A DNA stretch of 36,495 nucleotides. It comes from a virus. Each line of letters starts with the position of its first letter. Position 1 is the stretch's first letter. The notes under the pieces are model-generated. The model had not been told where the DNA came from, did not search any database, and worked only from the letters and a program-made list of their open reading frames with translations. This document shows, piece after piece, positions 14,901 to 36,495 of this stretch. The stretch spans positions 1 through 36,495 of IMG/VR virus record IMGVR_UViG_3300009593_000055. One strand, given 5' to 3'. The position numbers were made by a program, and so were the translations under genes.

Positions 14901-17900
14901 GATAAAGATTTGGTTAGTGCTTCCTTAAAATCTAACTTTGATACCTATACAGGAACTGAACTTACTATCAGAAGATCTTTCCCGCTTACTCATAACAATA
15001 ATACAATTTTCACTAAAGAATTTAATGGATCAGATTCTGCTGTTGTTAATTTAACTGATAATAGCATATTCTTACCTAATCACTATTTTGTTACTGGTCA
15101 AGAATTAGTATACGATACTCAAACTGGAATTAAGACAAACTTCATTTCAATTGCATCAACTAATGGTTTCCCTGGTGTTGGCGTAACAAATACGTTACCA
15201 AGAAGCGTCTTCTGTATTAAGGTTGCTGAAGATAAAATTAAACTCGCTACTAGTGCAGAAAATGCTCTTAAGAGGAATCCAGTTTCTGTTGGATTTACTG
15301 GAGTTGGACAAGCTGCTGGGCACTCCTTTACTGCTAAAGATGCAAATTCCAAGGTTATAGTTGGTATCGACAATATGATACAAGCTCCTATTGTTGCAAC
15401 ATCTGTAACTACTGGATTATCTACTGCGGTTCTTCCTTCTAAAGATATTATCTTCTTCACCGGAATTACATCATTCTTTGCTGGAGATTATGTAAAAATT
15501 GGTACTGAAGATGATGACGAAATTGTAAAAATTGTATCAATTGGAATAGGTACAACAAATGCAATTAAAGTTCGTCGTAACTGGTTTGGAACAGGGTTAG
15601 GAGCTCATCCTCAAGGAACAGTAGTTACCAAAGTAGCAGGCAATTATAACATTATTGACAATACAATTAATTTTGCGGAAGCTCCATATGGAAATAGACC
15701 TATAGGGTCTTTAACTGATCCGCCATCATTCAGAGATTGGACTGGTATAACAACTTCTTCTACTTTCTTCGGAAGGTCTTTTATGAGAAGTGGACCTCCT
15801 GGATCTAATGTTGAAACTTACACCAAGAATTACATTTATGATGATATTTCAGGATCATTTAATGGATTTACTAGAGAATTTACATTAACTTCAGAAAAAC
15901 AGAATATTTCTGGAATTACTTCATCAACCCTTATTTTTGTTAATGGTATTTTGCAGGGAGTGGGTGAGCAATACAATTATACGGTATCTCAAACAGGTAG
16001 TGCTAGTTCAATTAGTTTTACAGGAACCGCAAGTTCTGTAACTTATGATGTCAATAACGCGAACATCCCTGTTGGTGGTGTAATTGTTTCTGTTGCTTCG
16101 ACAACAGGATTTGGATATCAACCTCTTGTTTCTGCTGGCGGAACAGCAATTATTGCCAATACTGGAATAGTTACAAGTGTTTCTATAGGTAATAGTGGAT
16201 CTGGTTATAGGACTGGTATTCAAACAACTGTAAATGTTTCTGTTAAGAGACAGAGTTTAACAGGAGTTGATATAACAGGAATTGGAACTGCCGAAATTTC
16301 TGGCGGCAATATTATCGGAATTGCTGTTACTAATAATAAAATTTTCTACAAACCAGCAAATATTATCAATGTGGGTTATAGTTCCATAACAGGACTTACT
16401 ACAGTTACAACATCATTCCCACATAATCTGTCTATTGGTGATAATATTGTTCTTTCTGGTTTAGCATTTACTTGTGATTATGCTCCATCTGTTGGGGTAT
16501 TAACTGCTTCATATGATAATGCTAGCGGTATCATGACAGTCACAACAACCAGTGCTCATGGTCTTTCTGCTGCGCCTGGTAAGCAAAGTGATGTTATTCT
16601 GACTGGATTAGCATTCACTTGTGGATTAGGAGCTACAGTTCCTCACATTTATCCTAGAAACAGAGATGTATTCTTTGATACCGCAATTTCAGTTGCTTCT
16701 ACAACTGCAACATCAATTACTTTAGATGTTGGTAAATCTGGACCTAGAGATCAATATGCTCATACATTTGTAGGAGTTAGTACTGGTGCTGTAATTCAAG
16801 GTGGTAATTATACACATACATTCCAATATGCGTTAGAAAATTCAGTAACCACTGGTGTTGGAACTCAATTTACACCAACAAATGCTACATATAATCCAAC
16901 AAATGGTAATGTTGTATTAACAATTCCAAATCATGGATTAGATACAAACGTAGTTGTTGGAATCGCGACTAGTTCAATAGTCTTTAGATGTGATATGGAT
17001 CAGCAAGGTAGCGATCATCCATATCCAAGACCAACAGATCCTATTGCAGGAATTAATACTGCTATTACAGCAGCAGATGCTAATACCATCACTATCAATG
17101 TTGGTACATCTACTGCAGTATCCTATGATGTTAGTGCTGCTACATATGATCCAGCAACAGGAAATCTAGTTCTTACTATAGGCGCTCATACGCTACTTCC
17201 AAATAGAAATATTAAACTCAAGAATGAGTCACTTACGTTTACTTGCACCAAAAACGGCAATACAACGGAACACAGATATCCTAGACGTGGTGATTCCTAT
17301 TATGCAGGTAGCCCAGTTACTAATGTGGGGACTTCGACAGTATTTACCACTAATGTAGGAATTTCGACTGTTCCAACTCAATATGTCTCTGGTGGTAAGG
17401 TACAAGCAGCGATTATTGCTCCAAGACCCAATAACAATTCTGCAAGTAAGCAAGATTCTGCATATGAGGGAACAACGATTATTAGAGTTCTAGATTCAAC
17501 TTCTTTTGAGGTCAATACTGGAATTTCTACCAGAACTCATGAATATGCAAGAGGTGGTAAAGTAGATCAAAAACTTGATGTAATTATTGATGCTCCAGTA
17601 GCATATGAAAATATACCATTAACTTATACTAATGGTTCAACCGGCGAAGGTTCGTCTGCAGAAATTGATGTATTAGTAGGACAAGGATCAAGTGTAATTG
17701 AATTTAATATAGCAAATACTGGATTTGGATATGCGGTCGGTCAAACACTAACTATTGGTATTGGCGGAACAGTAGGAATTCCTACAGATCCAACTAAAAC
17801 GTTGAGGGAATTCCAGGTAACAATTGATAGAGTTGATGGTGATTCTTTCAATGCATGGTCTGTTGGAGAGATTGAAGCTTTAGATAATTTCTCCGAACTC

Positions 17901-20966: not shown

Positions 20967-23900
20967 ATGGCTCAACAAACCAATCTCAATGTTTCTCCAT
21001 ATTTTGATGATTTTGACCCTAATGACAATTACCATAGAGTCCTTTTCAAACCAGGATATCCAGTTCAAGCAAGAGAACTAACTGGTTTACAATCTATTCT
21101 TCAAAATCAAATTGAAAGGTTTGGACAGCACTTTTTTAAAGAGGGTGCCAAGGTTATCCCAGGAAATACTGCATATTCCAGGGATTATCATGCTGTTGAG
21201 TTAAATAACACTCATTTGGGAGTGCCAGTTGATTTTTATATTGAGCAACTGTTAGATAGAAAATTAATTGGTTTAACTTCCGGTGTAACAGCTTTTATAA
21301 AAAATGTAGTAAAATCAGAAAATTCTGATAGGGGTAATTTAACTCTTTATATTTCATATTTGTCTTCTGGAGTTCAAGATTCTGAACTGAAGACTTTTTT
21401 AGATGGAGAACTTTTAGCTACTGATGTTGATATTATTTCTGGTCCATTAGATAACCCATTCATTCCAATTGGGGAACCTTTTGCTTCTACTATCCCTTCA
21501 GATGCCACTTCGATTGGTGCAGCATTTTCTATATCAAATGGTGTGTATTTTATAAGAGGCAATTTTGTAAATGTTGCCGATGAAACGTTAATTTTATCAC
21601 AATATGAAAATAATCCAAGTGGTAGAGTTGGACTTAAAGTTTTAGAAGAGATTGTAAACTCAGATATAGATGAAAATCTTACAGATAATTCAAAAGGATT
21701 TAATAATTTTGCATCTCCAGGAGCAGATCGTTTAAAAATTAGTTGTTCTTTGACAGTTAAATCATTAGATGACTATAATGACTCTGATTTTGTTGAATTA
21801 GCTACCATTCGAGAGGGTTCTCTTGAATCTCAAACAAAAAATACTCAATATAGTATAATTGCTGATGAATTGGCACGTAGAACATATGCGGAGTCTGGTG
21901 ATTACACCATCATGCCGTTTAATGTGTCTGTTAGGGATTCTTTAGATGATGGTATTGGAAATAATGGAGTATATGAAGAGGGAAGATTTACTCAATCTGG
22001 TGGATTGGCATCTGAAGACCTTGCTTTATATGAAATTTCTCCTGGTAAGGCATTTGTAAAAGGTTATGAAGTTGAAACAATTAATACTACATATCTTGAC
22101 GTACCAAAAACAAGAACGAAGAAAAGGTTAGAAAATCAAGAGATTATTTTTAATACTGGGTCAACATTCAAAACCAATAATGTTTTTGGTGCTCCAACAA
22201 CTGGAATTGGTAATACTTATGTTTTAAGTTTAAGGGATAGAAGAGTTGGTTCTAGTGCAGAAACTTTAGTTGGAAAAGAAATTGGTTTAGCAAGAGTATA
22301 TGATTTTGCTTTAGAAAGTGGATCATACAGCGCAACTAACGCTCTTACTAATCAGTGGGATCTTCAATTATTTGATATTCAAACATTTTCTCATATTACA
22401 CTTAATGAACCAATAACATTAACAGTTCCAGTTCATGTTAAAGGAAAATATAGCGGAGCAACTGGATTTTTAAGAGAAAATGTTTCTGCTGGAGCAGCAT
22501 TAACGGTATATGAAAAGAAAGGTCAGTTTGCACTTAATGAACCACTTATTTTTGATGGCATAGAAAATTCTAGAGTTGCTGTTGCAGTAACAGCAACTGG
22601 AATATCTGATGTTAAATCTGTATATGGTGGACCAAGTTTAGGAAATATTGGCGCAGCAAAAACTTTTACTGCAGACACTGTACTGGATACTTTAGTCAAT
22701 ATCGGTATTTCTTCAATTACAGCAACGGTAGGTGCTGGTTCTGCTAAAATTACCGCACCTGCTAGTTCTAATTTACTAACCAAGGTTAAGGTTGGCAGTT
22801 TACTGCAGTTTACCGATACTGTATCTTCTCCTATTACTCCAATTGGGGCAAGAGTTACAAGCATCAACAGTGGTGATGTTACTGTTGTAGGAATTAATAC
22901 AGTTGCTGGTGTTCTGGATGGCAATTTACCCGAATCTGCAACAACGCTTAATGATCTCAAGATTATTGGAACTAAATTATCAGCAGCTACTGAAGATCTT
23001 GATGCGGAATCCTTATATACAAGGATGCCAAAACAGTTTATAAGTGATGTCGATTTAACTTCTTCCAATCTTGTAATTAGAAAAACATTTACTGTTAATA
23101 TTGCTACCAATAAACTTTCTTCTACAGTTTCTGCTGGAGCAAATGAAACTTTCTTACCATTTGATGAAGAGAGATATGCTCTTATTAGAGAAGATGGTAC
23201 TACAGAAGAACTAACTTCCGATAGATTCCAATTTACTAATGGTGGAAAAGAACTTCAAATTAATAATTTGGGTACTAATAGTACTGGATGTACTCTCTTT
23301 GCAACCTTGAGAAAATCAAGTCTTAAGGAAAAAATTAAGAGAAAGAATAGAGTAAGCACCTTAATTGTTGATAAGTCCAGAAATTCTGGTGCAGGGACAG
23401 GAACTACCACTTTAAATAATGGTCTCTCGTCGGGCAATTTCCCATTCGGCACTAGAGTTGAAGATGAAACAATTTCATTAAACAAACCTGATATTATCAG
23501 AATTTTGGGAATTTACGAATCTGTAGATACTTCAGCACCATCGGCTCCCCAAGCAACTTTATCTGCTTTAAGTGGGTTTAGTGGCAAAACTTCAGATTTA
23601 ATTGTTGGTGAATACTTGGTAGGCGAAGCTTCTGGAGCAAAAGCAGTATATACTGAAAGATTAACTGATACCCAAATTACCTATGTTCCTAGGACTGATA
23701 TAAACTTTATTGAAGGAGAGACTATAACTTTCTCTGAATCTAATGTTACTGCAACTCTATCTACTTTAAATACTCCAAGCAAAGCGATTGCAAGTCATTT
23801 TAAATTCAATAACGGACAAAATTCATCTACTTATGGATATGGTTTCCTCAAGAGAAAATCTGATGCAAGACAACCAAGCAGACAACTGAAGGTATATTTT

Positions 23901-26900
23901 GCATGTGCTTATTATGAAGATACTGATGATGGAGATATTACCACTAAAAATTCTTATGAATCATTTGATTATGATCTTGATGTTCAGACTGTTAATGGTG
24001 AAAGAAATACTGATTTGATTGACATAAGACCAAGGGTTTCTGATTATACTACCAGCGAAGGTTCTAGATCTCCATTAGAATTTTTGGGAAGATCTTATGA
24101 CGGTACTGGTAATTCAGCAGCAAATACACTAGCATCTGATGAATCAATCAATCTCGATTTTTCATTCTATCTAGGAAGATTTGATAGAATCTATATCACA
24201 AAAAATGGAAGACTTCAAGTTCAACAAGGTTCTCCATCAGAGAATAAAGAAAAACCAGTTCCACTTGATGATGCATTAGAAATTGCAACTGTATCTTTAG
24301 AACCTTATTTACTTGATCCTAGTGATGCTATTGTATCTTTCTTAGATCATAAGAGATATCGTATGTCCGATATCAAAAAACTTGAAGATAGAATTAGAAG
24401 TTTAGAATATTATACAACATTATCTCTATTAGAAGTCAATACTGAAAGTTTGTTTGTTGCAGACTCTGAAGGATTGAATAGATTTAAGTCTGGTTTCTTT
24501 GTTGATGATTTTACTACTCTGTTACCACAAGAAACTAATCTTGCAATAAAAAATTCTATTGATATTGAAAATAGAGAATTGCGTCCAAGACACTATACAA
24601 ACTCTATTGACTTAACAGTCGAACCTGTAGAGGGTGTTACGACAATGACTGATCTTGGGTTTACAGAACCCGATGGTGAAAATATTAAACGTTCTGCGGA
24701 TATCATTACTCTTGATTATGAAGAAGTTGAATGGTTGAAGCAAAACTTTGCAACAAGAACAGAAAGCATAACTCCTTTCTTAATTAGTTTCTGGCAATCT
24801 TCTATTGAATTAAGTCCATCGTCTGATACATGGGTTGATACTGCTAGAATTGAAGCAAAAATTATCCAAACAGAGGGTAACTATGCAGAGGAAATGGCAA
24901 AGGCTACTAGAAAATTTGGTAACCCAGATCCTCAAACTGGATTCTTCCCTATTCAATGGAATGCATGGCAAACCACATGGACTGGAACAACAAGTACACA
25001 GAGAAGTGGTGGAACTAGAACTGTAACCAGAGCTGGTGGTGGAGGTAGAAGAACCGTTTCTGGTGGAACTCGTCATATTCAAGGTCCAGGCGGCCGCGCT
25101 CGTCGTAGGGAGTGGACTGAATCATCAACTACAACTACCTTACAGGACACCATAACAGATACTTTTAGAGTTGGTACAGATAATAGATCCGGACAAAGAA
25201 CTATTATCACTGAAAGATTTGATAATAGTTCTATGGGTGATAGAATTGTTAATAGAGAAGTCATTAGTATAATGCGCTCTAGAAATATACAATTTGTTGG
25301 TAAGAAAGTAAGACCTCTTACAAAAATCTATCCATTCTTTGATTCCAGAGATGTAAGTAAGTTCTGTGTTCCAAAACTACTTGAAATTAGTATGTCCGCT
25401 GGTGCTATTTTCCAGGTGGGAGAAACTGTTGTTGGAAAAATGAACAACACTGGTTTGGGAAATCCAACAATAGCATCTCCAGAGATTAGATTTAGAGTTG
25501 CTACGGCAAATCATAAGGAAGGTCCATTTAATGCACCAACTAACATCTTTAGAAATAATCCATATCTTTCTCAAGTTGCTTCAACTGAAGTTGAAACTTT
25601 CTTAGGAACTCCAGGACAAGTTCAAGTTCCAGGACAAGCAAATGTTTTACCAGATACATATTCTTCAACATCAACCGTATTGAATGTCGATACTGCTGCA
25701 TTAGCAGCACAGGCACAAGGAGATTATTATGGTTATGTTGCTAAAGACATGGTTCTGGTTGGGCAAACAAGCGGAGCTCAAGCAGTTATTACAAATGTTA
25801 GACTTATGTCTGATCTTGGATCAACTCTGATTGGAAGTTTCTATATTCCTAATCCAAATATTGGTGGAAATCCAAGGTTTGAAACTGGGGAAAGAACTTT
25901 TACTTTAACTGATGATCCAAGCAATAATCAAGATGTTGCATCTACAATTGGTGAGCAGAAATATACTGCAACAGGAACTCTTGAAACAGTTCAGGAGCAA
26001 ATTGTTTCTGTTAGAAACGCAGAGATTCAAATTAAACAAGAATCTGATACAAGATCTGCAAGAGAATTTATTGGATCGTCATCATCTAGTAACGTAATTG
26101 ATTCTGTAACTACCACCAATAGAGTTATACAATGGTATGATCCATTGGCACAGTCTTTCCAAGTTTTGGATGAAACTGGTGTATTCATTACAAGTTGTGA
26201 TGTATTCTTCCAGACGAAGGATGATATGAATATCCCAATGACATTCCAAATCCGCACCATGCAAAATGGTGTTCCTACACAAAAGATACTACCATTCTCG
26301 GAGATTATTAAAGATCCTGCAGATATAAATGTTTCTGCAGATGGTACAGTTGCGACTACATTTAACTTTAAAGCACCAGTATACCTTGAAGGTGGTGGAG
26401 AATATGCAATCACTCTTGCATCTTGGTCTACGAAGTATAGAGTGTTTATCTCTAGAGTTGGTGAAGCTGATATTTTAACTGATGAATTTATTTCAAACCA
26501 ACCATATCTTGGATCCCTGTTTAAATCTCAGAATGCTTCTACCTGGGAACCAAGTCAATGGGAAGATCTTAAATTTGTTATACGTCGTGCAGACTTTGTT
26601 CAAAGTGGTTCGTTGGAAGTTTATAATCCAATTCTTGGAGAAGGTAATGGACAGATTCCAGTTCTTCAACCAGATTCAATTAACTTTAATTCCAAAAAAA
26701 TTAGAGTTGGTTTAGGAACTACAGTTCATGGTAATAATGCTTTAGAAATTGGCAATACTTTCTCTCAACAGCAAACAAATGCTACTGGCAACTTTGTTGG
26801 TTCTGCTGGATCGGGAACTGGTGCAATGACGATTGTTAATGCAGGAATTGGTTATACTCCAAGTGCAGCTGCTTTAACTTATACTGGTGTTGCTCTTACT

Positions 26901-28565
26901 AGCATTACTGGAACGGGTCAAAACTTAACTGCTAATGTTAGTGTTTCAAATGGTGTCGCTGTTGCAGCAACTATTGTTAATGGTGGTTCTGGTTATGTAA
27001 TTGGCGATGTTCTTGGAATCACTACTCTTGGGAATAACCCTGCTGGAAGAAATGCAAGATTCTCTGTTGTTTCACTTGCTAGTACAAATGAGATTATACT
27101 TGATAATGTTCAAGGTGATTTTGAAGTTGGAGCTGGAAAAACATTACAGTTTAGAAACAGCAGCAATGCATTAGTAACATTAAATGGAAATAATGGTAAT
27201 GTTACACCGACATCAATTAGAACAGTTGGTAACAATGATGGAATACACTTCACTGTTGATCATAAGAACCATGGAATGTATCATGAAAATAATCGTGTTA
27301 TAATTTCTAACGTAGAAAGTGATGTTATACCTACCAAACTCACTTCTCCTTATAATTCAGATTCTACATCAAATATTTTCGTTGCAGATTCTACTAACTT
27401 TAATACGTTTGAAAATGTTGGCGTAGGAACAACAACTGCCGGTTATTTGAGAATAGGTGATGAAATAATCACTTACACAGAGACTTCTTCTGGTACGATA
27501 GGTGGAATTACTAGAGGAGCAAATGCTAAAAATTATGTTGTAGGAACACCTGTTTACAAATATGAAATTGGAGGTGTTTCTCTTAGAAGAATTAATACCG
27601 TTCATGAATTTGGAGATGTTACTCTTGATAATCCAATATCATTTGATTCATATACAGTAAAAGTAGACATGTCTACAAATGGTAATGATAGAAGTGTTGG
27701 GACTAACTGGCCTGTTCTTTACTTTAATGAAACAAAATCTAGTGGTGGATTTAAAATTAGAGCCACGCAAAATATGCCATATGAAGCGATTGTTCCTTCA
27801 GTGCAAAATGTAACGGTTCCAGGAACCACGATTAGCGCAAGAATTAGAACAACTTCTGGTTCAAATCTTGGTGATGGTTCCGGTCAGAATTTACCAGTTC
27901 CATTCAATAATGAAGGATTTACTGATGTAACTATCAATGAAACAAATTATCTTTCTTCTCCAAGAATTATTGCATCTAGAACAAATGAAACAAACAGTGC
28001 TGTTTTACAGCAATTGCCAGGTGATCGTTCCTTTAATATGTCAATTTCCTTGGATTCGGCAGATTCCCGTTTAACTCCTATTATTGATGCACAAAGAGTT
28101 AGTGCAATCTTGATATCAAATAGAGTTGATAAACCGATCACAAATTATGTTGAAGATAATAGAGTGAATACAGTAGATGAAGATCCAAATGCTTTCCAGT
28201 ATATTTCTAACGAAAATACTTTAGAAAGTTCTGCAACAAGTATTAAGGTTCTCCTATCTGCTCATATTAACCAGTATAGTGATATTAGGGTATTCTATGC
28301 AATTGGAGAGGATCAAAACTTTGAACCAATCTTTGAAGCATTCCCAGGATACTCCTCATTAAATGACGGAAATCCTGATAGGATAGTTCCTCCTTCAAAT
28401 GCATCAGAAGGATTCTTATCTAATGATTTGACTTTTAAAGAATATGAATTTACTGCTGATGATCTACCTGCTTTTAAATCCTATCGCATTAAAATAATTG
28501 GTACTTCGACCAATCAAGCATATGCTCCAAGGATAAAAGAATTGAGAACAATAACTTTAGCATGA
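20967..28565 (+). CDS. giant DUF4815 virion structural protein (gp10 position)
   Basis: 2532 residues. The N-terminus (NVSPYFDDFDPNDNYHRVLF, PGYPVQARELTGLQSILQNQ) is the characteristic opening of the DUF4815 family found in T4-like cyanophages. A second conserved block at about 1720-1900 begins WYDPLAQSFQVLDETGVFIT and includes YLGSLFKSQNASTWEPSQWE. Between them, near 1346-1380, is a Gly/Arg-rich linker (GGGGRR, GGRARRRE) flanked by Thr/Ser-rich sequence. Two GxGY repeats lie near 1953 and 2001 and an InxE..RGxxGT-type module near 2140-2190. The C-terminus (FKSYRIKIIGTSTNQAYAPR then IKELRTITLA) is also family-typical. It occupies the place of T4 gene 10 after gp8 and probably forms the baseplate periphery and fiber attachment. 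That role is inferred. Confidence 0.8.
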   Translation: MAQQTNLNVSPYFDDFDPNDNYHRVLFKPGYPVQARELTGLQSILQNQIERFGQHFFKEGAKVIPGNTAYSRDYHAVELNNTHLGVPVDFYIEQLLDRKLIGLTSGVTAFIKNVVKSENSDRGNLTLYISYLSSGVQDSELKTFLDGELLATDVDIISGPLDNPFIPIGEPFASTIPSDATSIGAAFSISNGVYFIRGNFVNVADETLILSQYENNPSGRVGLKVLEEIVNSDIDENLTDNSKGFNNFASPGADRLKISCSLTVKSLDDYNDSDFVELATIREGSLESQTKNTQYSIIADELARRTYAESGDYTIMPFNVSVRDSLDDGIGNNGVYEEGRFTQSGGLASEDLALYEISPGKAFVKGYEVETINTTYLDVPKTRTKKRLENQEIIFNTGSTFKTNNVFGAPTTGIGNTYVLSLRDRRVGSSAETLVGKEIGLARVYDFALESGSYSATNALTNQWDLQLFDIQTFSHITLNEPITLTVPVHVKGKYSGATGFLRENVSAGAALTVYEKKGQFALNEPLIFDGIENSRVAVAVTATGISDVKSVYGGPSLGNIGAAKTFTADTVLDTLVNIGISSITATVGAGSAKITAPASSNLLTKVKVGSLLQFTDTVSSPITPIGARVTSINSGDVTVVGINTVAGVLDGNLPESATTLNDLKIIGTKLSAATEDLDAESLYTRMPKQFISDVDLTSSNLVIRKTFTVNIATNKLSSTVSAGANETFLPFDEERYALIREDGTTEELTSDRFQFTNGGKELQINNLGTNSTGCTLFATLRKSSLKEKIKRKNRVSTLIVDKSRNSGAGTGTTTLNNGLSSGNFPFGTRVEDETISLNKPDIIRILGIYESVDTSAPSAPQATLSALSGFSGKTSDLIVGEYLVGEASGAKAVYTERLTDTQITYVPRTDINFIEGETITFSESNVTATLSTLNTPSKAIASHFKFNNGQNSSTYGYGFLKRKSDARQPSRQLKVYFACAYYEDTDDGDITTKNSYESFDYDLDVQTVNGERNTDLIDIRPRVSDYTTSEGSRSPLEFLGRSYDGTGNSAANTLASDESINLDFSFYLGRFDRIYITKNGRLQVQQGSPSENKEKPVPLDDALEIATVSLEPYLLDPSDAIVSFLDHKRYRMSDIKKLEDRIRSLEYYTTLSLLEVNTESLFVADSEGLNRFKSGFFVDDFTTLLPQETNLAIKNSIDIENRELRPRHYTNSIDLTVEPVEGVTTMTDLGFTEPDGENIKRSADIITLDYEEVEWLKQNFATRTESITPFLISFWQSSIELSPSSDTWVDTARIEAKIIQTEGNYAEEMAKATRKFGNPDPQTGFFPIQWNAWQTTWTGTTSTQRSGGTRTVTRAGGGGRRTVSGGTRHIQGPGGRARRREWTESSTTTTLQDTITDTFRVGTDNRSGQRTIITERFDNSSMGDRIVNREVISIMRSRNIQFVGKKVRPLTKIYPFFDSRDVSKFCVPKLLEISMSAGAIFQVGETVVGKMNNTGLGNPTIASPEIRFRVATANHKEGPFNAPTNIFRNNPYLSQVASTEVETFLGTPGQVQVPGQANVLPDTYSSTSTVLNVDTAALAAQAQGDYYGYVAKDMVLVGQTSGAQAVITNVRLMSDLGSTLIGSFYIPNPNIGGNPRFETGERTFTLTDDPSNNQDVASTIGEQKYTATGTLETVQEQIVSVRNAEIQIKQESDTRSAREFIGSSSSSNVIDSVTTTNRVIQWYDPLAQSFQVLDETGVFITSCDVFFQTKDDMNIPMTFQIRTMQNGVPTQKILPFSEIIKDPADINVSADGTVATTFNFKAPVYLEGGGEYAITLASWSTKYRVFISRVGEADILTDEFISNQPYLGSLFKSQNASTWEPSQWEDLKFVIRRADFVQSGSLEVYNPILGEGNGQIPVLQPDSINFNSKKIRVGLGTTVHGNNALEIGNTFSQQQTNATGNFVGSAGSGTGAMTIVNAGIGYTPSAAALTYTGVALTSITGTGQNLTANVSVSNGVAVAATIVNGGSGYVIGDVLGITTLGNNPAGRNARFSVVSLASTNEIILDNVQGDFEVGAGKTLQFRNSSNALVTLNGNNGNVTPTSIRTVGNNDGIHFTVDHKNHGMYHENNRVIISNVESDVIPTKLTSPYNSDSTSNIFVADSTNFNTFENVGVGTTTAGYLRIGDEIITYTETSSGTIGGITRGANAKNYVVGTPVYKYEIGGVSLRRINTVHEFGDVTLDNPISFDSYTVKVDMSTNGNDRSVGTNWPVLYFNETKSSGGFKIRATQNMPYEAIVPSVQNVTVPGTTISARIRTTSGSNLGDGSGQNLPVPFNNEGFTDVTINETNYLSSPRIIASRTNETNSAVLQQLPGDRSFNMSISLDSADSRLTPIIDAQRVSAILISNRVDKPITNYVEDNRVNTVDEDPNAFQYISNENTLESSATSIKVLLSAHINQYSDIRVFYAIGEDQNFEPIFEAFPGYSSLNDGNPDRIVPPSNASEGFLSNDLTFKEYEFTADDLPAFKSYRIKIIGTSTNQAYAPRIKELRTITLA

Positions 28566-29370: not shown

Positions 29371-30216
29371 ATGGCACAACCATCTAGCCGATCAGAACTT
29401 ATTACTTATTGTAAGAGGCAATTAGGCGCTCCTGTTTTAGAAATTAATATCGCTGATGAACAGGTAGAGGATCTGGTTGATGATGCCTTGCAATATTTTC
29501 ATGAGAGACATTATGATGGGGTCGTTCAAACATATTTAAAATATAAAATTACACAAGAAGATATAGATAGGGGAAGAGGTAAAGCAGCTACCAATCCTAT
29601 CGGTATTGTCACAACAACTGCCTCCGCCAATATAGTAGGAAGTGCTACTACTTTTTCTTATGAAGAAAATAGTAATTATATTCAGATTCCTCCCGCAGTT
29701 ATTGGGATAAACAAAATTTTTAGGTTCGATGGTGCTAACACTGCAACTAGCAATATGTTCAGTGTTAAGTATCAATTATTCTTGAATGATATGTATTATT
29801 TCGGTTCAACCGAAATTTTGACATATGCCATGACTAAAAGATATCTGGAAGATTTAGATTTCGCTCTTACGACTGAAAAGCAAATTAGATTTAATCAAAG
29901 ACAAGATCGTTTATACTTAGATATTGATTATGAAAGTGTTATTGTAGATGATTACTTAGTTATTGATTGTTATAGACTTTTAGACCCAAATGATTTCTCC
30001 AGAGTATATAATGACTTTTTTGTAAAAAAATACCTCACTGCATTGATGAAGCGTCAGTGGGGAATGAATCTTATAAAATTCCAGGGAGTTAAATTACCAG
30101 GTGGGGTTGAGTTAAATGGTCGTCAACTATATGATGATGCTCAGCAAGAGTTAGACAAAATACAAGAACAAATGTCTAACACATATGAATTACCACCTCT
30201 CGACTTTATTGGATAA
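29371..30216 (+). CDS. gp13: gp13-like neck protein
   Basis: 281 residues against about 309 in T4 gp13. gp13 and gp14 form the head-tail connector ring that seals the filled capsid below the portal. Supporting segments are SRSELITYCKRQLGAPVLEI at the N-terminus, VEDLVDDALQYFHERHYDGV (about 31-50), and the KRYLEDLDFAL ... FSRVYNDFFVKKYLTALMKRQ segment in the second half. The last codon overlaps the first base of the gp14 ATG (TAATG at 30214-30218), so the two are co-translated. Confidence 0.93.
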   Translation: MAQPSSRSELITYCKRQLGAPVLEINIADEQVEDLVDDALQYFHERHYDGVVQTYLKYKITQEDIDRGRGKAATNPIGIVTTTASANIVGSATTFSYEENSNYIQIPPAVIGINKIFRFDGANTATSNMFSVKYQLFLNDMYYFGSTEILTYAMTKRYLEDLDFALTTEKQIRFNQRQDRLYLDIDYESVIVDDYLVIDCYRLLDPNDFSRVYNDFFVKKYLTALMKRQWGMNLIKFQGVKLPGGVELNGRQLYDDAQQELDKIQEQMSNTYELPPLDFIG

Positions 30217-31655
30217 TGGCACTTAATCCCTTCTTTTTACAGGGTTCCTCTGGGGAACAAAATCTTGTTCAGGATTTAATCAATGAGCAGTTAAGAATGT
30301 ATGGAGTGGAAGTTCACTTCATGCCTAGAAAATATGTGACAACAAATACAATTCTTAGAGAGGTAATAGAATCAAAATTTGATGATGCATATCCAATAGA
30401 GGCTTATGTTGAAAATTTTGATGGGTATGGTGATAATCCAACACTACTTTCAAAGTTTGGAATACAACAAACTAATGAGATAACTTTAATAATTTCAAAG
30501 GATAGATTTGAGAGTTACATCTCACCTTTGTTGAAAAATGAGTCAAATGTTAAAATTTCAAATAGACCAAAAGAAGGAGATTTAATTTATTTTCCTCTGG
30601 GTGATCGCATATTTGAAATTAAATATGTTGAACATGAAAAACCATTTTATCAGTTACAGAAGAATTACGTCTATGAATTAAGATGTGAACTCTTCCGTAT
30701 TGAAGATGAAATTATTGATACTGGAGTTGATGAAATTGATGATACCCTAGAGGGAATTGAGGGTGCAGATGGAGATACAATTTATGCTGGTATCGGCATT
30801 CAAAAACTAACTCTTGTTGGAACTGCATCTCAGGCAACTGCTGTCACCGGTATTGTTACCGGAGCAATTAGAAATATTGTTCTTACTAATAGGGGTTCAA
30901 ACTATATTGTTCCTCCAAGAGTTGCAATTTCTTCAGCTCCAAGTGGGGGAGTTACTGGTGTTGCAACTGCATTAACTAAGGGTGGAGTAGTTGTATGTAG
31001 TGGAGCAGCAAGTCCAGAGGGTAATCAACTTGTTGTTCAAAGTGTACAACTAATCAATCCTGGATCTGGTTACACAGTTGCTCCTAAAATTCAATTCTTC
31101 TCAAACAATGCTGATGGAACTGGATCTGGTGCTGCAGCAACTTCATTCCTCAGCAGTGATGGTCCGATCGGAATTGTAACTCTTACTTCAGGTGGTTCAG
31201 GATACACCACATCACCCACAATTACCTTCACAGGTATTTCTACTGTGTCTGCTGCTGCAACCGCTATTGTAAGCGCAGCAGGGACTATCTCAGCGATATA
31301 TGTTAGTAATGCTGGTGCTGGATATACAGTGGCACCAACAATCAGTATTGCGTCTCCAGGATCATCTGGAAGTGGAGACTTTAGTTTCAACGAAACTGTT
31401 ACTGGCGGAACATCCACTGCCACTGCAAGAGTTAGAAAATGGGATTCCTCTACAAGAGAGTTGGATATTTATGATGTTGATGGCATATTCCTTAAAGGTG
31501 AAACAATCACTGGTGCAACATCTGGAGCAACTAACCTAATCTTAGATGTAGGCACCGCTCCTGCAGATGATGGATTCTCTGATAATGACGATTTCCAACT
31601 AGAAGCAAATGAGATATTAGATTTTACAGAATCAAATCCATTTGGAACACCATAA
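30216..31655 (+). CDS. gp14: gp14-like neck protein with an inserted repeat domain
   Basis: 479 residues, nearly twice T4 gp14 (256 aa). Residues 1-190 match the family: NEQLRMYGVEVHFMPRKYVT, NFDGYGDNPTLLSKFGIQQT, then PKEGDLIYFPLGDRIFEIKY with PFYQLQ. A short C-terminal piece (FQLEANEILDFTESNPFG) resembles the gp14 end. Between them, at about 195-440, is extra sequence with four GxGY repeats and an ETVTGGTSTATARV module. gp14 joins gp13 to the tail completion ring. A late box overlapping the stop follows. Confidence 0.92.
   Translation: MALNPFFLQGSSGEQNLVQDLINEQLRMYGVEVHFMPRKYVTTNTILREVIESKFDDAYPIEAYVENFDGYGDNPTLLSKFGIQQTNEITLIISKDRFESYISPLLKNESNVKISNRPKEGDLIYFPLGDRIFEIKYVEHEKPFYQLQKNYVYELRCELFRIEDEIIDTGVDEIDDTLEGIEGADGDTIYAGIGIQKLTLVGTASQATAVTGIVTGAIRNIVLTNRGSNYIVPPRVAISSAPSGGVTGVATALTKGGVVVCSGAASPEGNQLVVQSVQLINPGSGYTVAPKIQFFSNNADGTGSGAAATSFLSSDGPIGIVTLTSGGSGYTTSPTITFTGISTVSAAATAIVSAAGTISAIYVSNAGAGYTVAPTISIASPGSSGSGDFSFNETVTGGTSTATARVRKWDSSTRELDIYDVDGIFLKGETITGATSGATNLILDVGTAPADDGFSDNDDFQLEANEILDFTESNPFGTP
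30864..31365 (+). repeat. GxGY beta-repeat array inserted in gp14
   Basis: Four protein repeats of pattern (V/I)xxxGxGYxxxPxxxI occur at about residues 218 (LTNRGSNYIVPPRVAI), 278 (LINPGSGYTVAPKIQF), 322 (LTSGGSGYTTSPTITF) and 362 (VSNAGAGYTVAPTISI). They are separated by Gly/Ser/Ala-rich linkers of about 40-60 residues. The neck core on both sides is family-typical, so the array is an insertion. Confidence 0.8.
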
Positions 31656-31679: not shown

Positions 31680-32681
31680 ATGTTTGAGTATTTTTATAAC
31701 GAAATATTGAGGAAGACCATTATTTCTTTTGGTACTCTTTTTAATGGATTGGAGATACAGCATACAGACGCATCAGATAATACGACAAGCATCGTTAAAG
31801 TTCCTTTGGCATATGGGCCTACTCAAAAGTTTTTAGCAAGACTTGATCAAGTTGCTGATTTAAATAAATCAACAGCAATGTCATTACCCAGAATGTCATT
31901 TGAGTTTACTGGGTTGACTTATGATCCATCTAGAAAAGTAACTACCACTCAACAGTTTACAACTAAAGATCCTGTAACAGAAAAACTAACTAAAAAGAAT
32001 TATATGCCAGTGCCATATAATATGGCATTTGAATTGAGTATCATGACTAAATTAAATGATGATGCTCTGCAGATAGTTGAGCAAATTTTACCATACTTTC
32101 AACCTGCATATAATCTCACGGTTAATTTAGTTGGATCAATAAATGAAAAGAGAGATATCCCAATTATATTAGAAAATATAACAATGCAAGATGATTATGA
32201 AGGTGACTTTAGAACTCGTAGAGTTTTACTTTATACTATGAGATTTACTGCAAAGACATATCTATTCGGACCTGTTACAGATTCTACGAAACAAATCGTT
32301 CGCAGTGCAAAAATCAATTATATCACAGGAACAAATACTTCAAATACAGAAAGAGATATCACTTATACTGTCACTCCTAAAGCAGTAAAAAATTATACTG
32401 GAGATGTTCTTACCAATTTGACAGCAGATATTGTTTCCACAGATACTGTATTTGAAGTTGATAGTGGATCAGCGGTTACGGCTAAAACTAATATTGGTGT
32501 AGATAATGAGACAATGTTTGTGAAAGCAATTAGTGGCAATCAATTGACTGTTATAAGAGGAAGTGAGGGAACCACTGCTAATGATCATGTTAGAGGAGCT
32601 GCTATCAATTCGATTACTGCTGCTGATGATGATCTTATCCCTATGGGAGATGACTTTGGATTTGATGGTACGATAGAATGA
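31680..32681 (+). CDS. gp15: gp15-like tail terminator / sheath stabiliser
   Basis: 333 residues against 272 in T4 gp15. The product caps the tail tube and contracted sheath and makes the surface for head joining. Family hallmarks are MFEYFYNEILRKTIISFGTL at the start, and ELSIMTKLNDDALQIVEQIL followed by PYFQPAYN (about 117-145), almost identical in pattern to T4 SIFTRYEDDMFQIVEQILPYFQP. RDIPIILENI and RRVLLYTMRFTAKTYLFGPV follow. After about residue 240 comes an extra beta module (NIGVDNETMFVKAISGNQLT, then VIRGSEGTTANDHVRGAAI) of a type also seen in the gp7-like and DUF4815 proteins. The stop overlaps the next start (ATGA). Confidence 0.93.
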   Translation: MFEYFYNEILRKTIISFGTLFNGLEIQHTDASDNTTSIVKVPLAYGPTQKFLARLDQVADLNKSTAMSLPRMSFEFTGLTYDPSRKVTTTQQFTTKDPVTEKLTKKNYMPVPYNMAFELSIMTKLNDDALQIVEQILPYFQPAYNLTVNLVGSINEKRDIPIILENITMQDDYEGDFRTRRVLLYTMRFTAKTYLFGPVTDSTKQIVRSAKINYITGTNTSNTERDITYTVTPKAVKNYTGDVLTNLTADIVSTDTVFEVDSGSAVTAKTNIGVDNETMFVKAISGNQLTVIRGSEGTTANDHVRGAAINSITAADDDLIPMGDDFGFDGTIE

Positions 32682-33103
32682 AAATGACAAAACAATTTGA
32701 TGAATTAAATAATGAGTTTAATGTGACAAGTGATGTCGTTCAACCTGAAATTGTTAAAGAAAAAATTGAAAAGGTAAGAGAGTCTGTAGATGATGTAAAG
32801 AAAGACTATGAATATACTCGTGGCAATCTTTACAGTATTATTGAAAAAGGACAAGAAGCACTTAATGGTATTTTAGAATTGGCACAAGAAAGTGAAATGC
32901 CAAGAGCATATGAAGTTGCTGGTCAGTTGATTAAGAATGTCGCTGATGCAACTGACAAGTTAATGAAGTTGCAGAAAGAACTTAAGGACGTTAATGAAGA
33001 ATCTGCTAAAGGACCTACAAATGTTACCAATGCATTGTTTGTAGGGTCTACCGCAGATTTGGCAAAGTTATTAAAGAGTGAAAGTCAAAAGGACAATAAA
33101 TAA
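32678..33103 (+). CDS. gp16: gp16-like small terminase subunit
   Basis: 141 residues against about 164 in T4 gp16. The small terminase assembles as a ring, recognises packaging DNA and regulates the gp17 motor. The long central coiled-coil hairpin is clear: KEKIEKVRESVDDVKKDYEY, then TRGNLYSIIEKGQEALNGIL, and YEVAGQLIKNVADATDKLMK. The C-terminal KGPTNVTNALFVGSTADLAK segment is usual in the family. ATG 32678 overlaps the gp15 stop; a second in-frame ATG at 32684 (MTKQFDELNNEF) looks closer to other family starts and may be used. A gp17 gene would normally follow; it is not in this window. Confidence 0.88.
   Translation: MKMTKQFDELNNEFNVTSDVVQPEIVKEKIEKVRESVDDVKKDYEYTRGNLYSIIEKGQEALNGILELAQESEMPRAYEVAGQLIKNVADATDKLMKLQKELKDVNEESAKGPTNVTNALFVGSTADLAKLLKSESQKDNK
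33095..33102 (+). promoter_or_regulatory. possible late box AATAAATA before the coiled-coil gene
   Basis: One mismatch from TATAAATA. It overlaps the last codons of gp16 including its TAA stop (33101-33103), 42 bp before ATG 33145. Confidence 0.35.
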
Positions 33104-33144
33104 TCTGGGGAGAGAAATCCCAAAGTACTAAGATTACTAATAAA

Positions 33145-35106
33145 ATGTCTAGAGAAGACTTGCCTTCTATTGACGATTACATTGTAGATATAGAAAGTCT
33201 ACCGTCAGTTGAAGATTATATAACAGAAGAAGTAAATACAGAATTACCTTCTGTCGAAGATTTTATTGCGAAAGAGGAAGAAGAAGATGATTTTCGCAGG
33301 ATAGAGGAAGCAACTCAAACTATAGAAGATGTTGATGGTAATACGTTTGCAGAAGTAAAGGACATAATTCCACCATTTCCAGAATTAATTCGTCTGATCA
33401 ACGATGTCAGGAAGGACATCCCAGACATTCCAGAAATAAAGTATTACGATAAAGAATTAGAAAGTCTAACAGAGCAGATAAACCAGGTAAGAGAAGATAT
33501 ACCTGAAGTTAGATATTATGAAGCAGAAATAGAGGAAATCTGTGAGCAGATTGATACTTTAAAAGAAGTAGTAGATAACAATGCTGCAGATATACCTGAA
33601 ATAAAATATTATGATGAGCAGATTGAAAAATTAGAACTTCGCCTTGATCGGGTAAATCAAAACATTAATGAACTCCCTGAACCAAAATATTATGAGGAAG
33701 ATATTCAGTCTCTTAGAATATCAGTTCAAGAAGTACGAGATCAAATTCCTACATTCCCTAAGTGGGTCAATGAGGTAAATGAAGTCCCTGATTTCTCTTG
33801 GATTGGAAAAACTTTTAGTGTCATTGATGATGATTTTGTCAAAGTCCATGATGCTGTTGAGGGACTGAGAGGTAAGGTTGAATATGACCTGGATAGAATT
33901 GAAGAGCACTTTGATAAGAAAGAATTTGAAACTAGAACTGAGTTTAATGACCTAAGAGAGAGTATCAATACCAGGTTTGATACAGAGAAAGAAAAGATTT
34001 GGAAAGAAATCAAAGAGACCTCAATGCGTATGTGGGGTCATCACAAAGAGTTTAAAGATGATGATAGAAAATTAAAGAAGCAAATTCTTGGTGAGTATAA
34101 TCTTCTTAAACAGACACTTAAAAAAGATCTTAAAGAAGTAAACAAAGAAAGTATAAAAACTGATGAACTGCTTCTTGGATATTTTAATGATCTGAAGAAA
34201 GAGATTTCAGAGTTGCCTGAAGTAAAATATTATGATGAGCAGATTAGTGATGTAAGGGATGAATTTAAAGACGGACTTAAATCTTTAAAAGTCATAGTTG
34301 AAGAGATTAGAGGTAAACAAGAGGTCTTAAAAGAAGAGATAAACAATAGACCTGTTCAACCTGATCCTAGTGAGTCTAACATTGATCCTTTAACTCCAAC
34401 GGATCAAAACTTTGCTACACATGAAGATCTAGCAAAGCACTACAAGTTATTCATCAATAGAATTCAGCAGCAATTATATACCATCGGTGGCGGTGGTGCT
34501 GGATTTATCAAAGACCTTGATGATGTAAGTTTTGATGCCGGAATAGGCACAGATAAACTTTTAATTTACAATGGATCTCAATGGGTTGGAATTGCAAGCA
34601 CAGCACTCTCTGGTAGCGGAGAAGCTACATCATTAGCAGATGGTGCAACCGGAGTTAGTCTTACTCTTACTGGAAATCTAAGTGTTGGTGGAACAATAAC
34701 TTATGATGATGTAACTTATGTTGATTCAATTGGTATTGCTACTGCTAGAAGTGGTTTAGAGATTGGTGCTGGTAGTCAAACAACAATAATAAAACTTGAT
34801 GCTGCAACAGCAACTACCACTACAACATCAGAATCTAACATAGATACTTTTAGTGCAAGCGTCTTTAGATCTGCACAGTATCAAATTCAGATAACCCAAG
34901 GATCAGCGTATCATGTGACGACATTAAATGTTTTGCATGATGGAACTAATGTTTATCTGTCGGAATTTGGAACGATAAGAACAACAAATGACTCTCTTGC
35001 AACATTTGATGCTGATATCAATTCTGGTAATGTGAGAGTTAGAGCAACTCCAAGTTCTAGCACATCAACAGTATTCAAAATCTCAAAGACGCTAACAAAA
35101 GTATAA
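33145..35106 (+). CDS. 653-aa coiled-coil fiber-like virion protein
   Basis: The N-terminus carries three copies of a short motif, LPSIDDYI (6-13), LPSVEDYI (19-26) and LPSVEDFI (34-41). It is followed by acidic linker, then helical segments each opened by PExKYYDxxI (P96, P120, P151, P178 and P358). Residues about 230-400 are highly charged coiled coil (EIKETSMRMWGHHKEF, KKQILGEYNLLKQTLKKDL). From about 450 the protein becomes Gly-rich and beta: GGGGAGFIKDLDDVSFDAGI, then YNGSQWVGIAS, and a terminal module SAYHVTTLNVLHDGTNVYLS. This stalk-plus-tip layout suggests a trimeric fiber or whisker. It lies where gp17 would be expected after gp16. Function inferred. Confidence 0.7.
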   Translation: MSREDLPSIDDYIVDIESLPSVEDYITEEVNTELPSVEDFIAKEEEEDDFRRIEEATQTIEDVDGNTFAEVKDIIPPFPELIRLINDVRKDIPDIPEIKYYDKELESLTEQINQVREDIPEVRYYEAEIEEICEQIDTLKEVVDNNAADIPEIKYYDEQIEKLELRLDRVNQNINELPEPKYYEEDIQSLRISVQEVRDQIPTFPKWVNEVNEVPDFSWIGKTFSVIDDDFVKVHDAVEGLRGKVEYDLDRIEEHFDKKEFETRTEFNDLRESINTRFDTEKEKIWKEIKETSMRMWGHHKEFKDDDRKLKKQILGEYNLLKQTLKKDLKEVNKESIKTDELLLGYFNDLKKEISELPEVKYYDEQISDVRDEFKDGLKSLKVIVEEIRGKQEVLKEEINNRPVQPDPSESNIDPLTPTDQNFATHEDLAKHYKLFINRIQQQLYTIGGGGAGFIKDLDDVSFDAGIGTDKLLIYNGSQWVGIASTALSGSGEATSLADGATGVSLTLTGNLSVGGTITYDDVTYVDSIGIATARSGLEIGAGSQTTIIKLDAATATTTTTSESNIDTFSASVFRSAQYQIQITQGSAYHVTTLNVLHDGTNVYLSEFGTIRTTNDSLATFDADINSGNVRVRATPSSSTSTVFKISKTLTKV

Positions 35107-35131: not shown

Positions 35132-36495
35132 ATGAAAGAAGAGACTAATTACAAGTCTAGAGACAAAATCATGAAGAAGGCAAAACCTCTTCATAAGCAT
35201 CTATATAAGAACCTTCATAAGAAGGATATGACTGGTGATGTTAATGAAGCAAAGAATGGTCGTTGTCCCGCAGGACAATATTATTGCTATACTGACGAGA
35301 AATGTAAATCCATTCCTCGTGGATTTATGGTAGACCCCAAAGGAATGCTCCGTAAAGAAAATGGGCATTCAATAGATGATGATAAAAAGAAAAATGGTAA
35401 TGGAAACGGAAACGGAAACGGAAACGGCGCTGCGGTTTCGGAAGGGAACAAAAGTGGTGATAGTTCTTTGCGTGACTGGTTTGGCAAGAGTCGCTCTTCT
35501 GATGGGAAGCCTGGTTGGGTGCAACTTGGTGGCAAGTATGCAGGAAAACCCTGTGCCAAACAACCAGGACAAACAACAAAACCCAAGTGCGGTTCTTCAA
35601 AAATGAAGCGTGCTCTCTCTAAGGATGAAGAGGAAGCAGCATTCCGTCGCAAGAATCGTAAGGATCCAAATCCAGATAGAAAAGGGAAGGCAATTAACGT
35701 GAAGACAGAAGAAACAATTCGCGAAGGTGATTACTGGCATCCTGACCCCAAGAAAGATGCTCAAATCAGTGGTCAGGGCAATAAAGCGCGAGCCCGTGAA
35801 GATAGAGGAGGTTCTTCTCCATCTCCTTCATCATCAAAACCAGATCCTAAAAAACTTCGTAAGGGCGAATCCTATATTGATTATGCTAAGCGTCAGAAGG
35901 GTGGATCTTCTACACCTAAACCTAAAGAACGTAAGCGTGATAAAATTGGCAAACTTCTTGGTAAGGCAATTGATAAAGTTGGTGGTATTAAATCCGAAGA
36001 GACAATTTTAGAAAAAGCAGGAACTAAAGATGCTTGTTATCACAAGGTAAAGTCACGCTATAAAGTTTGGCCAAGTGCATATGCATCTGGTGCTTTAGTT
36101 AAGTGTCGCAAAAAAGGTGCTGCTAATTGGGGTAATAGCACCAAAAAGGAAGAGTTTCAAATGTCTGATTGGAGATCTGAGATTGATCTTGAAGAAGGTC
36201 AAAAGTGTTGGAAAGGATATGAGAAAAAGGGAACCAAAAAGATGTTTGGTAAGACCTATAATAATTGCGTGAAGAAGGAAGAACTTGGACTCATATCAAA
36301 AACTCCTTTAGACGAAAAGAAAGGTTGTATGCATAATCATAAAGGTGAAGAGTGTCCAGTACATGGTAAGAAAGAATGTCCTTCTGAAGTTTCAGAGGCA
36401 GTAAGAGTTCCTGCTCAAACAGGCAACATCATTAATGCATACTTTAAGTATAGAACTAATTACATCTCTCTGAAGATGTTCTTCCCACAAACATC
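35132..36495 (+). CDS. 5' part of a basic, Cys/His-containing modular cyanophage protein
   Basis: Open from ATG 35132 to the window end (454 codons, no stop), so the gene is cut by the window edge. It has a good ribosome binding site (AAAGGA at 35113-35118) and a perfect late promoter. The product is strongly basic and modular: GRCPAGQYYCYTDEKCK near 43-60, an Asn-Gly repeat at 88-99, a DUF5872-like block near 110-175 (LRDWFGKS, PGWVQLGGKYAGKPC, FRRKNRKDPNPDRKGK), a CYHKVKSRYKVWPSAYASGA module around W313, a CWKGYEKKGTKKMFGKTYNN module from C359, and a possible zinc site CMHNHKGEECPVHGKKEC (399-416). It ends in a YFKYRTNYISLKMFFPQ module. I recall these modules from cyanophage virion-associated proteins; function unknown. 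Confidence 0.8.
   Translation, partial: MKEETNYKSRDKIMKKAKPLHKHLYKNLHKKDMTGDVNEAKNGRCPAGQYYCYTDEKCKSIPRGFMVDPKGMLRKENGHSIDDDKKKNGNGNGNGNGNGAAVSEGNKSGDSSLRDWFGKSRSSDGKPGWVQLGGKYAGKPCAKQPGQTTKPKCGSSKMKRALSKDEEEAAFRRKNRKDPNPDRKGKAINVKTEETIREGDYWHPDPKKDAQISGQGNKARAREDRGGSSPSPSSSKPDPKKLRKGESYIDYAKRQKGGSSTPKPKERKRDKIGKLLGKAIDKVGGIKSEETILEKAGTKDACYHKVKSRYKVWPSAYASGALVKCRKKGAANWGNSTKKEEFQMSDWRSEIDLEEGQKCWKGYEKKGTKKMFGKTYNNCVKKEELGLISKTPLDEKKGCMHNHKGEECPVHGKKECPSEVSEAVRVPAQTGNIINAYFKYRTNYISLKMFFPQT
35402..35425 (+). repeat. GGAAAC hexanucleotide tandem repeat
   Basis: Four perfect GGAAAC units in coding frame, part of a six-unit Asn-Gly linker (residues 88-99). Gain or loss of units would keep the reading frame while changing linker length. 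Confidence 0.85.

Follow-up and report, generated by a model that had tools for sequence, protein, structure and literature searches.

In phage T4, fibritin (gpwac) combines a conserved N-terminus of ~50 residues, a segmented coiled coil and a variable C-terminus, as described in the accessible text of PMC3797505, and it binds gp13 according to the available portion of PMC12270204. Cyanomyoviruses are said to be without wac in the accessible sections of PMC2984593, which also report S-PM2 as collarless and treat as an open question what takes the place of the whisker and of the tail fibres seemingly missing in cyanomyoviruses. The fibre family described here is an abundant candidate, with a short anchor, for replacing structures that cyanomyoviruses seem to lack. 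Modular phage fibres are known, and it is the anchor of this one that is unusual.

The fibre gene and its neighbourhood

The window, that is, the whole stretch of 36,495 bases analysed here (virus record G000), is a piece of a T4-like cyanomyovirus genome according to its PHROG and Pfam matches, with the gene order gp25, gp6, gp8, gp13, gp14, gp15, gp16. Its closest relative is SynMITS9220M01 (gp13 identity 85.8%). The fibre gene is found between gp16 and a protein of the T4-GC 119 kind, in the gp16–gp17 interval of T4-like cyanomyoviruses. The initial annotation dealt with residues 1–402 of the 653-aa ORF (33145–35106), where it described a motif triplet and a series of repeats; its observation is confirmed, and its interpretation, a flexible anchor for several identical sites followed by a segmented stalk, is partly supported.

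29371..30216, + strand: gp13 neck protein (phrog_211)
30216..31655, + strand: gp14 neck protein (PF11649, phrog_460)
31680..32681, + strand: gp15 tail sheath stabiliser; extra domain at residues 247–333 (PF16724 on residues 4–246; alignment)
32678..33103, + strand: gp16 small terminase (phrog_445)
33145..35106, + strand: fibre gene, 653 aa, with anchor, stalk, hinge and tip (ORF; PHROG tail fiber phrog_28263)
35132..36493, + strand: conserved T4-GC 119-type protein of cyanophages, running off the end of the window (phrog_727, E 7.2e-118)

The last of these proteins contains CPAGQYYCYTDEKCK and matches the T4-GC 119 protein of S-SM2 at 46.0% over 452 aa. Elsewhere in the window are two very large ORFs, one of 4462 aa at the place of gp7 (5997–19385) and one of 2532 aa (20967–28565; phrog_358, S-SM2 VrlC match 53%). 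The stretch 33104–33144, before the fibre ATG, may be a conserved leader; it reads in frame ...EKSQSTKxTNxM in the window and in SynMITS9220M01, is similar in other relatives and also has a GGG...CCC pair.

Relatives of the fibre are encoded in 505 IMG/VR stretches, of which the best 80 (L001–L080, the best matches to a query containing the LPS motif) were examined. Among these best 80 of 505, and counting only loci with enough sequence, 74/77 have gp16 at most 300 nt upstream (in L072, L073 and L079 the gp16 match ends ~413 nt from the fibre), the GC 119 protein lies downstream in 39/39 and gp17 lies downstream in 12/12. Of 50,697 phage records, none but those of SynMITS9220M01 and AG-345-E15 (a single-cell virus) match the first 76 residues. 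The whole protein matches the phrog_28263 profile (E 1.1e-19), best over residues 345–464, which cover the stalk end and the hinge. A PDB sequence search with the whole protein returned nothing at E up to 1, and a PDB profile search gave two weak hits for the stalk part and nothing convincing for the tip.

The nearest described protein, SynMITS9220M01_093 (MT408532.1, a hypothetical protein of a Synechococcus phage), occupies the same locus with three LPS copies, five PExKYYD units and the hinge, and matches the window fibre at 83.8% over query residues 1–517; it differs in its length of 1167 aa, its other tip and the 110-aa gene that follows. SSM2_107 of S-SM2, a tail fiber-like protein at the same locus, has the GGGG-LDD hinge and a related tip but neither LPS nor PExKYYD, and carries FFSLIG and FRSLVG within its first 30 residues instead. 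The fibre of marine virus AG-345-O18 shares the locus, the YYD stalk, the hinge, the tip and the following small gene, whereas its anchor is of the type IRNPSDFF / IDAPKRHFGE. T4 fibritin resembles the window fibre in architecture (accessible text of PMC3797505) and in its neighbouring neck genes, but has no sequence similarity to it, and wac is upstream of 13 rather than after 16. The fibritin families phrog_1056, phrog_9687 and PF07921 gave no match to the window protein, although T4 wac itself hits them; by sequence comparison, the fibre is not a member of the fibritin family. As in fibritins, a conserved N-terminus is combined with a variable C-terminus in the window fibre family.

Putative N-terminal anchor and predicted segmented stalk

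The initial annotation placed LPS(I/V)(D/E)D(Y/F)I three times within the first 41 residues, and LPS[IV][DE]D[YF]I is indeed present at residues 6, 19 and 34 of the 653-aa protein.

33160..33183, + strand: anchor copy 1, LPSIDDYI, residues 6–13 (motif pattern; LPS invariant in 85/85)
33199..33222, + strand: anchor copy 2, LPSVEDYI, residues 19–26 (motif pattern; LPS invariant in 85/85)
33244..33267, + strand: anchor copy 3, LPSVEDFI, residues 34–41 (motif pattern; LPS invariant in 85/85)

When residues 1–41 were shuffled, 0 of 200,000 sequences had even one match to the pattern. Far from being absent in homologues, all three copies are kept, the L-P-S of each being invariant in 85/85 non-redundant rows between variable linkers, with a mean column entropy of 0.67 bits in the motifs versus 1.26 in the remainder of residues 2–49. 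Shuffles and conservation thus rule out chance or a low-complexity tail as the source of the motif. Fresh duplication is also ruled out, because the copies, compared pairwise, have 16–18 of 24 nucleotides in common and differ at 6–8. Three copies occur in 136 of the 145 unique N-termini of relatives, five in 8 and two in 1; L021 and L028, whose 5′ ends are incomplete, do not enter the motif counts. The copy-to-copy distance is 11–13 and then 15 residues (the second being 12 in 2/105).

The AlphaFold2 monomer, built on 83 rows, is a weak full model (mean pLDDT 58, pTM 0.24). Over residues 1–80, its pLDDT is mostly <50, with small helical turns within this low-confidence part, and the N-terminus is not predicted to fold alone, in keeping with the suggestion of a docking peptide rather than a folded domain. 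Taken as a set, residues 1–47 are amphipathic (period 3.55, 30/1000 shuffles).

A search for the motif in other phage proteins, as had been proposed, found none elsewhere in the whole SynMITS9220M01 genome, head proteins included, or outside the fibre in five LPS-type records of 42–79 kb, which rules out a general virion tag. A pattern scan requiring two copies 15 codons apart and a TCN serine hit this fibre in 119/119 loci among the matches listed, 8 of them ending at a contig edge. The LPS-type record G003 was missed, its copies departing from the pattern; of the non-LPS-type records, G007 gave one stray match and G006 none. A less strict tag, an N-terminal PS-D-F-F, was likewise rejected: in SynMITS9220M01 it is confined to this fibre and two doubtful ORFs. 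No description of the LPS motif was found in the mainly open-access literature searched, which included the accessible text of PMC10966104, PMC7029224, PMC7378029 and PMC6224464.

In the stalk, P-E-x-[KR]-YY-[DE] recurs at residues 96, 120, 151, 178 and 358, with spacings of 24, 31, 27 and then 180 residues.

33430..33450, + strand: stalk unit 1, PEIKYYD, residues 96–102 (pattern; helix from 97)
33502..33522, + strand: stalk unit 2, PEVRYYE, residues 120–126 (pattern; helix from 121)
33595..33615, + strand: stalk unit 3, PEIKYYD, residues 151–157 (pattern; helix from 151)
33676..33696, + strand: stalk unit 4, PEPKYYE, residues 178–184 (pattern; helix from 184)
34216..34236, + strand: stalk unit 5, PEVKYYD, residues 358–364 (pattern; helix from 364)

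The five units had been described as PExKYYDxxI; their number and their first three spacings stand, with small departures from that consensus: the last residue is E in units 2 and 4, R replaces K in unit 2, and L rather than I comes after unit 1. Whole-protein shuffles (20,000) contained at most one PExKYYD each. In the model, helices begin at the units or ~6 residues after them, and three further helices between units 4 and 5 are without a PExKYYD unit. With a hydrophobic period of 3.45–3.65, six of the eight stalk helices are reached by ≤28/1000 shuffles, whereas amphipathicity is not significant in helices 121–147 (53/1000) and 184–200 (102/1000), nor is periodicity when 97–200 is taken as one frame. 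The stalk is pictured by the model much as first suggested, as separate helices forming a predicted segmented amphipathic helix, and by likeness to fibres in general it would be a trimer. In homologues, successive units are mostly 20, 24, 27 or 31 residues apart, and the differences of 7, 3 or 4 between these spacings would correspond to a coiled-coil insertion pattern. A Pfam match to NPV_P10 was below the cut-off and was set aside as coiled-coil noise.

Hinge, tip and exchange of the distal end

34384..34524, + strand: conserved hinge, DPLTPxDQ...RxQQQL...GGGG...LDD, residues 414–460 (near-invariant columns)
34786..35103, + strand: tip beta domain, residues 548–653 (pLDDT ~84 over most; T4 gp9 fold match)

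The hinge is present in 13 of the 50,697 phage records. S-CAM7 (L082; also L204) has the GGGG hinge at two places, near 124 kb and 172 kb. By structure comparison, tip residues 548–653 match residues 169–284 of T4 gp9 (1qex_A; Z 11.6, rmsd 2.9, 105 aligned), ahead of 9f4a_LA (Z 9.9) and the tailspike 6e1r_B (Z 9.3), and the tip folded alone matches the gp9 C-terminal domain similarly (Z 11.4, rmsd 2.5, 101 aligned). The correspondence covers the C-terminal domain of gp9 only, with no match found to the other gp9 domains, and the PDB profile search gave no sequence hit to gp9. A gp9-like fold, matched here on a predicted structure, would not by itself indicate a function.

Tips differ between otherwise nearly identical genes. 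L144 and L188 share 98.4% DNA identity over 2118 nt of anchor and stalk, differ in their tips and return to 97.6% identity immediately past the end of the L144 gene; the tip is likewise swapped in L043/L045. Among 80 complete unique proteins (560–1284 aa), 16 pairs belong to different tip classes despite >90% identity over residues 1–400, the ends being gp9-like in 27, LPGM...ALDG in 29, FILALS/G in 18 and other in 6, two of which are gp9-like by eye. A gene of ~110 aa (phrog_1276; for example L081:15505–15837) follows the FILALS/G tip in 17/17 loci with enough sequence, two loci ending in FILALG being counted in this class, and follows other tips in 0/41; its product is perhaps a tip chaperone or cap travelling with the tip. 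Near-identical anchors and stalks with swapped tips, together with a tip-linked small gene, are as expected of an adhesin tip undergoing exchange, and it is this tip that would contact the host.

Proposed attachment to the virion

The protein is probably an adhesin-type virion fibre with a flexible multivalent linear-motif anchor, a segmented stalk and an exchangeable tip. In the proposed arrangement, residues 1–47 would be an unstructured acidic ribbon with three LPSxx[DE][FY] copies that hook onto sites recurring on the particle and so hold the fibre there, residues ~80–400 would form a segmented, probably trimeric coiled coil with the PExKYYD units as helix starts and joints, and the exchangeable tip after the GGGG hinge would probably contact the host. 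We infer both the virion location of the fibre and the docking of its LPS motifs onto the virion. A docking ring at the neck or upper tail and one at the baseplate seem about equally conceivable, each somewhat short of an even chance.

The neck proteins themselves bear on this choice. L024/L181, with an LPS fibre, and S-SM2, with another anchor and no LPS triplet in its genome, were compared: gp13 is 100% identical over 115 aa, gp14 95.0%, gp15 94.0% and gp16 96.2% over 79 aa. Near-identical neck proteins with two different anchors do not support a dedicated neck receptor. In the gp15 tree, where S-SM2 sits among LPS loci, anchor class requires 5 changes versus at least 15 in 200 shuffles, which mostly reflects lineage. 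The gp13 region matching domain III (fibritin attachment in T4) aligns and is divergent. An extra domain of gp15 (residues 247–333; gene 31680–32681), preceding the DDFGF end, accompanies a gp16-adjacent fibre in 5/5 named phages (window, SynMITS9220M01, S-SM2, Bellamy and P-TIM68) and is found in 0/7 without such a fibre (S-SM1, S-BM3, S-CAM1, S-PM2, ACG-2014f, S-RIM2 and ACG-2014b). As a dock it is ruled out, since 2/2 further phages, P-SSM4 and S-CAM9, have the domain yet no gp16-adjacent fibre.

Less likely than not is a neck fibre of the whisker kind, which would parallel T4 fibritin in being held by gp13/gp14/gp15 and would end in an adhesin tip. The gene adjoins gp13–gp16, the fibritin-like architecture and the reported lack of wac would suit such a role, but fibritin PHROG and Pfam families do not match (hhalign probability 0.2), near-identical neck proteins carry another anchor, and S-PM2 is the phage reported as collarless, though it has no such fibre at the gp16 locus. 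A tail fibre of the usual kind, mounted on the baseplate, is a possibility of some weight, still less than even; the gp16–gp17 interval, a known hot-spot according to the accessible part of PMC3037559, would then be no more than the place where its gene happens to be. The tip module recurs in cyanophage proteins annotated as tail fibres (54.4% to that of S-SM2 over residues 503–649), its fold is that of the gp9 C-terminal domain, and in S-SKS1, S-CAM7, S-B05 and S-PRM1 fibres with a related hinge or of the S-SM2 type are encoded elsewhere than beside gp16. No baseplate gene was seen to follow the anchor, however, and all LPS fibres in an independent set (below) are beside gp16.

T4 directs proteins into its proheads by short N-terminal signals, and the fibre gene neighbours packaging genes; on these grounds the LPS copies could have their role in assembly (targeting to scaffold or head, or binding of a chaperone) rather than in the finished particle. 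This is improbable, as a shared signal would be expected and no other SynMITS9220M01 ORF has the motif. There is similarly little likelihood that the copies fold back on their own trimer to cap the stalk: the amphipathic character of residues 1–47 and the helical turns in the model would agree with it, whereas model confidence is low over the N-terminus, and a copy number of 2 to 5 with changing spacing is hard to fit to a three-chain cap.

With the multivalent anchor retained as the preferred reading, other anchors at the same locus are informative. A motif-free query (the O18-type fibre) retrieved 80 loci, namely 44 LPS, 24 PS-D-F-F type, 9 unassigned and 3 open at the 5′ end, the PS-D-F-F and unassigned classes being set by our own rule. 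Among loci with at least 300 nt of upstream sequence, 44/44 LPS, 19/22 PS-D-F-F and 3/9 unassigned fibres are beside gp16, so that placing is tight for the LPS class. Some non-LPS anchors carry their own motif twice (IKSPTELFE/IKSPKEIFN, LNKPSDFFE/VSAPKEFFG); in most IRNPSDFF loci the pattern finds the first copy only, the second, IDAPKRHFGE, being recognised by eye. As several non-LPS anchors are thus also tandem, tandem short motifs may be a general mode of fixing these fibres. More tentatively, gp16–gp17 fibres of marine T4-like phages might use interchangeable tandem short motifs (two to five copies of LPSxx[DE][FY], or pairs of [ILV]xxP[SKT]x[FLI]F or of FxSL[IV]G), with modules swapped separately and avidity replacing a folded dock. 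Should the anchor be multivalent, a small peptide would suffice for fibre exchange. In fibres L254 and L279, a cysteine motif, CNDEQKCK, directly follows the LPS copies and is similar to CPAGQYYCYTDEKCK of the window protein 35132–36493.
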